A program made the translations under genes and the position numbers. A stretch of DNA of 64,000 nt, taken from Paracoccus haematequi. Its GTDB lineage: Bacteria; Pseudomonadota; Alphaproteobacteria; Rhodobacterales; Rhodobacteraceae. The stretch covers positions 1-64,000 of the forward strand of contig NZ_UZWE01000018.1 in NCBI RefSeq assembly GCF_900631945.1. Direction: 5' to 3'. Below are positions 29,558 through 32,718 of the stretch, in pieces. The stretch's first letter is position 1. Each line of letters begins with the position of its first letter. The notes beneath the pieces were generated by a model. The model had not been told where the DNA came from and searched no databases. It saw nothing but the letters and a program-made list of their open reading frames with translations.

Positions 29558-29684
29558 GGCGATCCTGCGTTCTTCTGCTCTGATCCCGCCCATAGCAAGG
29601 GAGGGGGTCTTGTTGCAACTCACGACGGCGTATCGGGGGCGATTTGCCCTTGACCGGGGCCGGTCCAGCGCACATCTGCTGGGC

Positions 29685-29966
29685 ATGGACCCTGCATCCC
29701 GCCCCTGCTGCCATGCCCGACGCCCGCTGCGGCGGCCCGCGCATCTGTGCCGGGGCCGGGGCGACCGCGCCTGCCGCTGTCATCAGGATGCGCGCCCCGC
29801 CGTTGCCCGTCCCCGCCGCAGCCTGCGGCTGGATCCGCGCGCGCTGATCGCCGCGCTGTTTCCACGGCAGCCGCCCATGCGGCCGCAGGCGCCGCCCCGT
29901 TTCCTGAACCCGTCCCGCATCCTTGGCACGATTTCAGGAAACCATCATGACCGTTCAATCCGCTGA
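29685..29966 (+). CDS. Candidate Cys/Pro-rich leader ORF of copA
   Basis: Possible 93-residue frame in the ~390-base gap between the transpeptidase start and copA. The N-terminal part has clustered Cys/His (PCCHARR, HLC, CRCHQ); the second half is Pro-rich (FPRQPPMRPQAPPRF). Position-specific GC is lowest at codon position 2 (about 68% against 81-83% at positions 1 and 3, counted by eye), as expected for a coding frame but Arg-rich. It overlaps the copA start by 20 bases, and the codons right after APP form one arm of a perfect hairpin that hides the copA Shine-Dalgarno. The start is uncertain (TTG at about 29613 after AGGGAGGGGG is an alternative). No family is recognised; a copper-sensing leader is an inference. 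Confidence 0.42.
   Translation: MDPASRPCCHARRPLRRPAHLCRGRGDRACRCHQDARPAVARPRRSLRLDPRALIAALFPRQPPMRPQAPPRFLNPSRILGTISGNHHDRSIR
29899..29942 (+). promoter_or_regulatory. Hairpin sequestering the copA Shine-Dalgarno
   Basis: Perfect 10-bp inverted repeat: GTTTCCTGAA (29899-29908) and TTCAGGAAAC (29933-29942), 24-nt loop. The right arm contains AGGAA, the Shine-Dalgarno of copA, whose ATG begins four bases later. The left arm lies immediately after the Pro-Pro codons of the candidate leader frame, inside the footprint of a ribosome paused there. Confidence 0.65.
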
Positions 29967-32205
29967 TCTGCCCGCCTTGGGCGATCCGTCCGACCTGATC
30001 ACCACCCGCCTTTCCATCGAAGGGATGAGCTGCGCCGCCTGTTCCGGCCGCGTCACCCGCGCGCTGTCGGCCCAGCCCGGCGTCCGCGATGCGCAGGTCA
30101 ACCTGATGACGGGTTCCGCCCGCATCCGTCACAGCCCCTCCCTGCCGCCCGCCGATCTGGCGGCGGCGGTGACGAAGCTGGGCTATCCGGCGACCATCCC
30201 CGCCGCTGCCGCCCCCGCCCCTGCCCCCCGCACCGACGAATCCGCCGCGCTGAAGCGCGCCTTCCTGACCGCCCTGGTCCTGACCCTGCCGGTCTTCCTG
30301 GCCGAGATGGGCGGCCATCTTGTCCCGGCCTTCCATCACTGGCTGCACGCGGCGGTGGGCACCGCGCCGCTGAACTGGGCGCAGATGGTCCTGACCGCGC
30401 TTGTCCTGGCCGGGCCGGGGCGGCGCTTCTTCGCGACCGGCATCCCCGCCCTGCTGCGCGGCGCCCCCGAGATGAACAGCCTCGTCGCGCTTGGATCCGG
30501 GGCGGCGTTCCTGTTCTCGGCCGTGGTGGTGGTGCTGCCGGGGCTGATCCCGCCCGCCTCGCGCCATGTCTATTTCGAGGCCGCGGCGGTCATCGTCACC
30601 CTGATCCTGATGGGCCGCTGGCTGGAGGCCCGCGCCAAGGGCCAGGCGGGCGCCGCGATCCGCGCGCTGATCGACCTCGCCCCCGACCAAGCGACGATCC
30701 TGCAGGACGGCAAGCCCGCGCGCATCGCGGTGGCGGATCTGCAACCCGGCGATCTGGTGCTGCTGGCGCCGGGCGAACGGGTGGCGGTCGACGGGATCGT
30801 GACCGAAGGGCGCGGCCATGTCGACGAAGCAATGCTGACCGGCGAGCCCGTCCCGGCCGAGAAATCGCCCGGCGATCCGGTCACCGGCGGCACCGTCAAC
30901 GGCAGCACGGCGCTGACCTTCCGTGTCACCGCCACCGGCGCCGACACCACCCTGTCGCGCATCGTCGGCATGGTCGAAAACGCGCAGAACGCGCGCTTGC
31001 CGGTGCAGGCCCTGGTGGACCGGATCACCCGCGTCTTCGTGCCGGTGGTGATCGGGCTGGCGGTCCTGACCTTCCTGCTGTGGCTGGTCTTCGGTCCCGA
31101 CCTGGCCCATGCGGTGGTCGCGGGCGTGGCCGTGCTGATCATCGCCTGTCCCTGCGCGATGGGGCTGGCCGTCCCGGTCTCGATCATGGTCGGCACCGGG
31201 CGCGGCGCGCAGCTGGGCGTGCTGTTCCGGCGGGGCGAGGCGTTGCAGCGGCTGTCGAACGCCCGGCTGATCGGCTTCGACAAGACCGGCACCCTGACGC
31301 GCGGACATCCCGAACTGGTCGCCATCCAGACCGACGGCATCGACGAGGCCCAGGCCCTGCGCCTTGCCGCCTCGGCCGAGGCGCGGTCCGAACATCCCCT
31401 GGCCGCCGCCATCGTCGCCGGTGCCGGCGCGCGCGGGCTGGATCTGCCGCCCGCCAGCGACGTTCAGGCCAATGCCGGGCGCGGCCTGTCCGCCACCGTC
31501 GAGGGGCGGCGCCTGCTGATCGGAAACCTGGCCGCCCTGACCGAAGGCGGAATCGCGCCCTCGGCCATGCTCCGCGATCAGGCCGAACAGGCGGCGGCGC
31601 AGGGCGCCACACCTGTTCACCTGGCCGTGGACGGCCGCCATGTCGCCAGCTTCGCCCTGGCCGACCGGATCCGCCCCGAGGCCGCGCAGACCATCGCAGC
31701 GTTGCATGGCATGGGACTGAAGACGGCGATGCTGTCAGGCGACGTTCCCGCGACCGCGCAGGCGGTCGGCAAACAACTGGGCATCGACCGGATCCAAGGC
31801 GGCCTGATGCCCGGCGACAAGCTTCAGGCGATCCGGGCGATGGGGACAGGTTCGGTCTTCGTGGGCGACGGCATCAACGACGCCCCGGCCTTGGCGGCGG
31901 CCGAAACCGGCATCGCCGTCGGCACGGGCACCGGCATCGCCATCGAATCGGCCGATCTGGTGCTGATGTCGGGCGATCTGGGCGGGGTGCCGTGCGCGAT
32001 CCGGCTGTCGCGCGCGGTGATGCGCAACATCCGGCAGAACCTGTTCTGGGCCTTCGCCTATAACGCCGCGCTGATCCCGATCGCCATGGGCGTGCTGGTG
32101 CCCTTTGGCGGGCCGCAGCTTTCGCCGATGCTGGGGGCGGCCGCGATGGCACTGTCCTCGGTCTGCGTGGTGGGCAATGCGCTGCGGCTGCGGACCGCAG
32201 GCTAA
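29947..32205 (+). CDS. copA: Cu(I)-exporting P1B-type ATPase
   Basis: 752 residues. One N-terminal metal-binding domain (GMSCAAC, C29 and C32), then the P-type core: MLTGEPVP, the CPCAMGL metal site of the membrane, DKTGTLT with the phosphorylated Asp, and GDGINDAPAL. The last helices carry AYNAALIPIAMG and MALSSVCVVGNALR, matching the YN and MxxSS patterns of copper(I) ATPases. It pumps Cu(I) out of the cytoplasm. ATG at 29947 follows AGGAAA; the frame is open a few codons further up. Convergent with the PCu(A)C gene, with a shared terminator. Confidence 0.95.
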   Translation: MTVQSADLPALGDPSDLITTRLSIEGMSCAACSGRVTRALSAQPGVRDAQVNLMTGSARIRHSPSLPPADLAAAVTKLGYPATIPAAAAPAPAPRTDESAALKRAFLTALVLTLPVFLAEMGGHLVPAFHHWLHAAVGTAPLNWAQMVLTALVLAGPGRRFFATGIPALLRGAPEMNSLVALGSGAAFLFSAVVVVLPGLIPPASRHVYFEAAAVIVTLILMGRWLEARAKGQAGAAIRALIDLAPDQATILQDGKPARIAVADLQPGDLVLLAPGERVAVDGIVTEGRGHVDEAMLTGEPVPAEKSPGDPVTGGTVNGSTALTFRVTATGADTTLSRIVGMVENAQNARLPVQALVDRITRVFVPVVIGLAVLTFLLWLVFGPDLAHAVVAGVAVLIIACPCAMGLAVPVSIMVGTGRGAQLGVLFRRGEALQRLSNARLIGFDKTGTLTRGHPELVAIQTDGIDEAQALRLAASAEARSEHPLAAAIVAGAGARGLDLPPASDVQANAGRGLSATVEGRRLLIGNLAALTEGGIAPSAMLRDQAEQAAAQGATPVHLAVDGRHVASFALADRIRPEAAQTIAALHGMGLKTAMLSGDVPATAQAVGKQLGIDRIQGGLMPGDKLQAIRAMGTGSVFVGDGINDAPALAAAETGIAVGTGTGIAIESADLVLMSGDLGGVPCAIRLSRAVMRNIRQNLFWAFAYNAALIPIAMGVLVPFGGPQLSPMLGAAAMALSSVCVVGNALRLRTAG

Positions 32206-32259: not shown

Positions 32260-32718
32260 TCAGTGGCTCTTGTGGCCGTGCCGAGCCTTTTCGGGCGCGC
32301 GGTCATTGTCCAGCGTGACATCCAGTTGCTGTGTGCCGCAGGGGCCGAAATCCAGCGTCAACGCCACGATATCGCCGTCGGTCAGCGGCTTTTTCAGCCC
32401 CATCAGCATCACATGGTCGCCGCCCCGCGCCAGCGTGTGTTCGCCGCCAGCGGGGATGGCGATCCCTCCGTCGATCTTGTGCATCTTCATCACCCCGTCC
32501 TGTTCGGAATGGGTGTGCAGTTCGACCATATCGGCCGCGTCCGAGGACACGCCGGTCAACTGGCAATCCACGTCGCGATGGTTCTCCACCACCATGAAGG
32601 CGGCGGCGGTCTGCGGATTGGCGCTGCGCGCATAGGCGTCGCGGATCTCCAGCCCGTCATGGGCAAGGGCTGCGGCAGGGGTCATGACGGCCAGAATGGC
32701 CAGGGTCTTGCGGATCAT
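32260..32718 (-). CDS. Periplasmic copper chaperone, PCu(A)C family
   Basis: 152 residues with a signal peptide (ending AALAHD). The Cu-binding pattern H-x-M is present: VELHTH, MKMHKI, then HVMLMGL; the C-terminus adds a His-rich tail (HGHKSH). PCu(A)C proteins hand copper to cytochrome oxidase or other periplasmic cuproproteins. In Rhodobacter capsulatus the homologue CutG is in the cutF-cutO-cutG operon. Here it lies 15 bases behind a CutF-like gene with no multicopper oxidase between them. GAGGA sits seven bases before the ATG. Confidence 0.92.
   Translation of the reverse strand: MIRKTLAILAVMTPAAALAHDGLEIRDAYARSANPQTAAAFMVVENHRDVDCQLTGVSSDAADMVELHTHSEQDGVMKMHKIDGGIAIPAGGEHTLARGGDHVMLMGLKKPLTDGDIVALTLDFGPCGTQQLDVTLDNDRAPEKARHGHKSH

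Follow-up and report, generated by a model that had tools for sequence, protein, structure and literature searches.

A conserved Cys/His leader peptide gene and a Shine-Dalgarno hairpin precede copA in Paracoccus and may form a co-translational copper switch

The open reading frame in front of copA in Paracoccus haematequi is, judging from its substitution pattern among relatives, a gene under purifying selection, and we think it probable that its product is a cis-acting regulatory peptide (uORF) of copA, in which a copper-dependent pause of the ribosome at a Q[AG]PP motif, itself inferred, holds open a hairpin over the copA Shine-Dalgarno sequence. Sequence comparison across the genus established coding selection on the frame, invariant motifs, fixed spacing, a covarying hairpin and linkage to copA. 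The window, by which we mean the whole 64-kb stretch of DNA that was analysed, is part of the 4.1-Mb genome of this species (G000). Its CopA scored 566.7 bits against the copper-translocating ATPase model TIGR01511 (cut-off 397). The divergent neighbour of copA is an L,D-transpeptidase (YkuD) gene, and the leader frame and an inverted repeat lie between the two. The features of the locus are as follows.

29650..29677, plus strand: putative promoter, TTGACC (29650-29655) and CACATCT (29671-29677), an element found before many leaders.
29685..29966, plus strand: leader peptide gene, 93 aa, from ATG 29685 to the stop at 29966; dN/dS 0.23, stop-free in 13 close copies, with homologues ahead of copA in 85 of the 92 regions that could be read.
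29742..29783, plus strand: HLCRGRGDRACRCH, the Cys/His core (residues 20-33), which we propose as a putative copper sensor; C22, G26, C30, R31 and C32 are invariant in 44 aligned leaders.
29886..29897, plus strand: QAPP, residues 68-71, proposed arrest motif with its first Pro codon at 29892; Q[AG]PP in 85/85 leaders.
29899..29908, plus strand: hairpin 5' arm (anti-Shine-Dalgarno), GTTTCCTGAA, perfect 10-bp complement of the 3' arm.
29933..29942, plus strand: hairpin 3' arm, TTCAGGAAAC, containing the copA Shine-Dalgarno; supported by arm pairing, fold z and a permutation test.
29947..32205, plus strand: copA, Cu(+)-exporting P1B-type ATPase, 752 aa, with HMA, E1-E2 ATPase and hydrolase domains.
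32260-32718, minus strand: gene for a copper chaperone of the PCu(A)C type, convergent with copA.

Searching 125 Paracoccus genomes with CopA and with the intergenic DNA yielded 94 copA upstream regions, 93 of them with a CopA identity above 60% and one (L114) taken by its leader DNA match. Contig ends truncate two regions (L018 and L072), which left 92 readable ones. The remaining 31 of the 125 genomes, whose best match to CopA was weaker or broken or did not appear in the list, stayed out of the upstream comparison except for G023. In the set of the 13 closest copies, to which the window's own belongs, the leader frame showed a dN/dS of 0.23 (mean dN 0.15, mean dS 0.64), and third positions dominated its variable columns, which numbered 27, 25 and 62 at the three codon positions out of 71 each. 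The frame is open throughout in these sequences. Coding on the five other frames was rejected, as all of them contain stops (1-15 in the 13 sequences), four gave ratios of at least 1.6, and the fifth (rc1), with a ratio of 0.32, has 15 stops. A profile built from the 13 copies detected a leader homologue in 85 of the 94 regions (E at most 1.2e-5), and the leader is absent from 7 of the 92 readable ones. An earlier reading made from the window alone (the sequence-only reading) had named frameshifts or loss of the Cys or Pro-Pro residues in close relatives as grounds for refutation; among the 85 leaders found there is no frameshift and no loss of a core Cys or of Q[AG]PP.

Two motifs occur in 85/85 leaders, a C-x7-C-R-C core and, further on by 36-50 residues, Q[AG]PP (75 QAPP and 10 QGPP). 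Residues C22, G26, C30, R31, C32, P67, Q68, P70 and P71 are invariant in an alignment (A1) of 44 of the 85, a His stands two residues before the first Cys in 80/85 and another right after CRC in 79/85; with both His residues the core reads H-x-C-x7-C-R-C-H. The distance from core to Pro-Pro is about what the ribosome tunnel holds. The leaders are Arg-rich, with a mean length of 93 aa, and they end 1-5 residues past Pro-Pro in 28/85 and 20-33 residues past it in 57/85. Direct reading of the window frame found the RQPP, QAPP, CCH and CRCH motifs that had been reported for it. A role for the first Pro-Pro site, RQPP, is not supported by the comparison: among the 13 closest copies only the window (RQPP) and its nearest relative (RRPP) have it, and in L007 it is shifted by one residue, whereas PQAPP is kept in 13/13. 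The 20-base overlap with copA, also read directly, holds for all 13 closest copies, but it is not general and a role for it is likewise unsupported, since the leader ends before the copA ATG in 28/84 regions and beyond it in 56/84.

Direct reading likewise confirmed that a perfect 10-bp inverted repeat (29899-29908 and 29933-29942) buries the copA Shine-Dalgarno, AGGAAA at 29936-29941, which serves the ATG at 29947. Taken alone, this repeat would not stand out. Perfect 10-bp inverted repeats with loops of 3-30 nt occur 16 times in the 64-kb window, or about 0.1 per 390 nt, and the window's 101-nt fold has a z of -1.71, with 11 of 200 shuffles folding equally well. Hairpin and frame are both unremarkable when the window is viewed by itself; it is the comparison across genomes that makes the hairpin significant. 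For this we used 84 of the 85 regions, leaving out L110, which has no in-frame copA start in range. The hairpin stretch gave a mean z of -3.83 against dinucleotide shuffles, with z below -2 in 79/84, compared with -0.19 (6/84 below -2) and 0.03 (2/84 below -2) for equal-length controls inside the leader and in copA, respectively. The minimum-energy structure has the Shine-Dalgarno window of copA paired with bases upstream of it in 84/84 regions. Counted from the first Pro codon, these 5' partners extend from a median of +7 to a median of +15.5, and in 68/84 they stay within +3 to +18. The mean pairing probability of the Shine-Dalgarno was 0.88 as against 0.66 in shuffles, and in 44/84 regions no more than 2 of 50 shuffles reached the observed value; pairing of the Shine-Dalgarno is thus common in shuffled sequence as well, a point that counts against the model.

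To follow arm pairing without an alignment, we permuted the arms among 44 of the 84 regions, retained after filtering at <75% identity. Cognate arms paired at -18.4 kcal/mol on average and non-cognate arms at -10.6, and 0/10,000 permutations reached the observed sum, a result that held separately for the 13 short and the 31 long leaders. The cognate 3' arm was the single best partner in only 16/44 regions, ranked among the best 5% in 27/44 and beat the arm of the nearest relative in 32/44 (p 0.0018). This alignment-free test was used instead of column-based counts. RNAalifold returned no common structure and no pairs on a MAFFT alignment of 79 of the 84 hairpin regions (A2), probably because the stems are offset between clades; in a column-wise count on 26 chosen sequences (A3) the structure slid by one column paired better, and 20 chosen sequences (A4) hardly vary and are too conserved for such a count. 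Covariation in the hairpin, which the sequence-only reading had proposed as a check, is borne out in that the arms change sequence between clades yet stay complementary. As far as predicted folds and arm pairing can tell, the locus has the arrangement of a translational attenuator that sequesters the Shine-Dalgarno, in which a conserved hairpin pairs it with sequence that would lie under a paused leader ribosome, the pause itself being inferred.

The first Pro codon of Q[AG]PP lies 49-58 nt from the copA ATG in 84/84 regions and 52-55 nt from it in 75, while the end of the leader can fall as much as 46 nt upstream or 58 nt downstream of that ATG; hence it is the Pro codon, not the stop, that is held in register. 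This bears on plain translational coupling, in which any translation of the leader would open the hairpin without pausing or metal sensing. All 84 leaders do end within that range, where a ribosome that terminates or runs through would perturb the hairpin as well, but coupling leaves unexplained both the retention of Q[AG]PP and the Cys core in 85/85 leaders and the fixed distance of the first Pro codon, rather than of the stop, to the copA ATG. We regard it as an unlikely explanation.

In the copper-dependent pause that we propose instead, the nascent Cys/His core would reach the mouth of the exit tunnel at about the time the ribosome arrives at Q[AG]PP, 36-50 codons later, where excess cytoplasmic Cu(I) would bind the nascent core and lengthen the pause. 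The paused ribosome, with the first Pro codon in its P site, would cover the 5' arm of the hairpin, and the Shine-Dalgarno some 45 nt downstream would be freed, so that a second ribosome could initiate on copA 49-58 nt away. In the absence of copper the pause would be brief, the hairpin would refold and copA translation would remain low. A paused ribosome reaches about 15 nt beyond its P-site codon. As the partners of the Shine-Dalgarno lie at +7 to +15.5, the pause would strip the anti-Shine-Dalgarno arm while leaving room for a second ribosome, and this would explain why the Pro codon is kept in register with copA. The Cys/His core as signal input and copper as signal are natural candidates by inference, and inference likewise supplies the occurrence of the pause, Cu(I) as its ligand and a lengthening rather than a shortening of the pause by copper.

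The idea of a ribosome paused at Pro-Pro over the 5' arm, already present in the sequence-only reading, fits this geometry and also a tested arrest motif, although pausing here is inferred. In RAPP-type arrest the third and fourth motif codons occupy the P and A site (PMC12992588), and a QAPP peptide of the RQH class tested by that group, uA_RQH_Myxococcales, which judging from its name lies upstream of secA, arrests ribosomes in vitro, with less arrest upon the Q86A replacement (PMC10987492). Against the proposal, the Arg of R-A-P in ApdA, ApdP and ApcA tolerated 0/19 replacements (PMC12992588), arrest by the Myxococcales QAPP peptide was weaker in vivo than in vitro, and most tested RAPP-like sequences of E. 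coli and B. subtilis proteins caused no efficient arrest (PMC10987492). Q[AG]PP may therefore pause weakly or not at all; one might speculate that weak pausing is just what a ligand-tuned switch needs. Two further points count against it: the spacing between core and Q[AG]PP varies from 36 to 50 residues, unlike that of DUF2946 leaders, which hold their motif spacing within one or two residues (PMC9426467), and the leader is lacking in those 7/92 readable regions.

The direction of the copper effect could also be the opposite, the apo-leader pausing and copper releasing it, with copA being lowered or with Rho-dependent termination between leader and copA. There is precedent in CruR of Bordetella pertussis, where RAPP arrest occurs at low copper and is relieved by copper, Rho termination follows and the signal peptide is uninvolved (PMC9426467). 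However, copA encodes an exporter and should rise with copper; by the geometry of the pairing partners, pausing at Q[AG]PP would make the Shine-Dalgarno accessible, not block it; and the intergenic region of CruR spans 162 nt (PMC9426467), as against 49-58 nt with a hairpin here. We consider this direction improbable. Because an exporter should be made at high copper, prolongation of the pause by copper, as proposed for CutF, is favoured over its relief, as in CruR.

The third alternative is a stand-alone small copper-binding protein, metallothionein- or chaperone-like, that is co-expressed with copA, hairpin and overlap merely setting the ratio of the two proteins. The conserved Cys/His core with its CxC, the size and Arg-rich composition (mean 93 aa) and the position upstream of a Cu exporter would suit such a protein. 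Yet the part after Pro-Pro is optional, 28/85 leaders ending 1-5 residues past it, and PQ[AG]PP is kept near the end; nor was any convincing family or PDB match found. A Pfam scan of 44 of the 85 leaders hit only two unrelated families with one member each (E 0.69 and 0.77), NCBIfam gave no convincing match for the same 44, and a PDB profile search returned only hits with E of at least 0.16. We give this explanation very little weight. Finally, a chance open frame beside a chance inverted repeat, conceivable in GC-rich DNA with its many open frames and in a window with 16 such repeats, is refuted by conservation, dN/dS and hairpin statistics over 84-85 genomes and can practically be discarded.

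The copper-dependent leader that we favour has to be placed beside known copper leaders, all the more as the sequence-only reading had held it to be unrelated to DUF2946 and to lack a signal sequence. The first claim stands insofar as the leader is not recognisable as DUF2946: the 44 scanned leaders do not match the DUF2946 profile (PF11162), and hhalign of A1 against the host's own DUF2946-like protein gave a probability of 0.1%. The second agrees with a simple hydropathy measure, by which none of the 85 leaders has a signal-like hydrophobic stretch (the best 15-aa windows reach 1.25 at the most and never exceed 1.6). The conserved C-x7-C-R-C core found in 85/85 leaders is not the CxxC/CxxxC metal motif of DUF2946. 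One DUF2946 trait that the leaders do share is a RAPP-like Pro motif towards the end of a peptide encoded just ahead of a copper gene, but 20-33 residues follow the motif in 57 of them.

CutF of Rhodobacter capsulatus, a DUF2946 protein of the cutFOG operon for which prolongation of the pause by copper has been proposed, has a stem-loop that shields a Shine-Dalgarno, and its Cys and Pro motifs are needed for copper-dependent output (PMC9973294). Like the Paracoccus leader, it combines a small upstream ORF that has a Cys motif for metal binding and a Pro-rich end with a stem-loop over the Shine-Dalgarno of the next gene, and copper raises the output of a detoxification enzyme. CutF, however, depends on its Sec signal and on export during translation, is proposed to be a sensor of periplasmic copper and targets the oxidase CutO (PMC9973294), whereas in the Paracoccus leader neither a signal-like stretch nor DUF2946 similarity was found, the Cys motif is different and the target is the exporter gene copA. 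CruR is likewise the uORF of a copper gene with a Cys motif and a RAPP-like motif, its CxxC and RAPP being 45 residues apart (PMC9426467). CruR belongs to DUF2946 and uses Rho termination to turn down an uptake gene when copper is present, its signal peptide taking no part in sensing (PMC9426467); the Paracoccus leader has Q[AG]PP, H-x-C-x7-C-x-C-H and a hairpin over the Shine-Dalgarno of an exporter gene. With the RQH-class arrest peptides (ApdA, ApdP, uA_RQH_Myxococcales) it has in common a small uORF with [RQH][AG]PP, A or G being second; the search that defined that class called for an N-terminal localization signal and a downstream sec or yidC gene (PMC10987492), whereas the Paracoccus leader shows no such signal by hydropathy and has copA downstream. 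CueR-controlled copA is the same kind of target gene, but its control is transcriptional and of the MerR type. The best reading is a leader that is functionally like CutF but of an unrelated family. In G000 we also noticed a DUF2946-like ORF (L115:1417-1845; G000:C35:185094-185411) whose score of 22.4 bits falls short of the 23.7 cut-off. It contains CPAC and, close to the C terminus, RGPP; a leader of the CutF/CruR type and the QAPP leader may thus coexist in this genome.

Upstream of the leader, CACATCT of the putative promoter ends 7 nt before the leader ATG and no Shine-Dalgarno is visible there, from which we inferred a leaderless or nearly leaderless transcript for the window leader. The element TTGA[CT]...CACA[TC] stands before 41/85 leaders, with a spacing of 15 nt in 40 of those 41. 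A sigma-70 consensus scan found no promoter site and a terminator scan found nothing; the one weak, below-threshold Rfam match in the region (sul1, E 0.54) lies inside copA and was rejected. In three regions, L026, L027 and L085 (genomes G047, G046 and G095), leader and hairpin are both missing and the copA ATG stands directly behind CTTGAC...CACATCT. As copA abuts the same promoter-like element there, leader and hairpin look, from this arrangement, like a removable module. The starts of the leaders L065, L068, L071, L082, L099 and L102 show at least two modes among Paracoccus leaders, one without a visible Shine-Dalgarno, few bases behind CACATCT, and another with a purine stretch of the GGGAAAGGA / GGAAGGAG type before the ATG and no CACATCT there.

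A profile search of the 125 genomes matched 88, with one strong match per genome; the match in G034, weak and without the core motif, is probably due to chance. It added two carriers, G023, whose copA frame is broken in the assembly, and G085, whose leader lies at a contig end. Across the family (394 genomes, 393 genera), with at most 12 candidates scored per genome, strong matches occurred only in two members of the window's genus; weak matches outside Paracoccus (L126 and L127), with no copA on the approximately 3 kb fetched for each, were taken as chance. Scanning for one peptide pattern placed 28 of 29 leader loci in named genomes in Paracoccus, one of them L156 of P. zeaxanthinifaciens ATCC 21588, and the remaining one in an alphaproteobacterial MAG assigned to the window's genus, and tblastn of the window leader against plasmid records gave no match. 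As far as these searches go, the leader appears practically restricted to Paracoccus.

The copper response of copA has been described as transcriptional, through CueR, CsoR, CopY and others (PMC9973294). CueR above the NCBIfam cut-off is present in 24/87 leader genomes versus 24/38 others (Fisher p 0.0003, kinship not corrected) and absent from 63/87 leader genomes. In the 24 leader genomes with CueR, none above the cut-off is near the leader-type copA; it is on another contig in 20 and at least 269 kb away in 4. In some leader-less genomes, G120 and G121 among them, a CueR gene lies next to the copA homologue. Below the cut-off, 124/125 genomes have weaker matches to the CueR model, which are probably other MerR-type regulators. 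The two regulatory solutions, leader and CueR, seem to alternate in the genus.

Among the matches listed in searches of the open-access literature we found no description of such a copA leader, and QAPP combined with stalling gave only the Sec/YidC paper and one unrelated. We incline, somewhat cautiously, to the broader view that the leader is a cytoplasmic co-translational Cu(I) sensor, a non-exported nascent Cys/His peptide that at the tunnel mouth sets the lifetime of an RQH-type arrest without membrane pulling, that stands in for CueR across much of the genus and that arose independently of the DUF2946 leaders. If so, copA itself would be under translational control by a soluble nascent peptide, and copper-sensing leader peptides would seem to have evolved more than once. 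As the peptide is small, shows no signal and carries a motif of a known arrest class, an effect of metal on the nascent chain and its arrest could be tested in a purified system without membranes.

As a separate observation, G000 itself has a CueR gene (G000:C42:8863-9237) and, at a distance of about 3 kb, a second P-type ATPase with 50% identity (G000:C42:12185-14161), the two possibly forming a separate CueR-controlled copper island.
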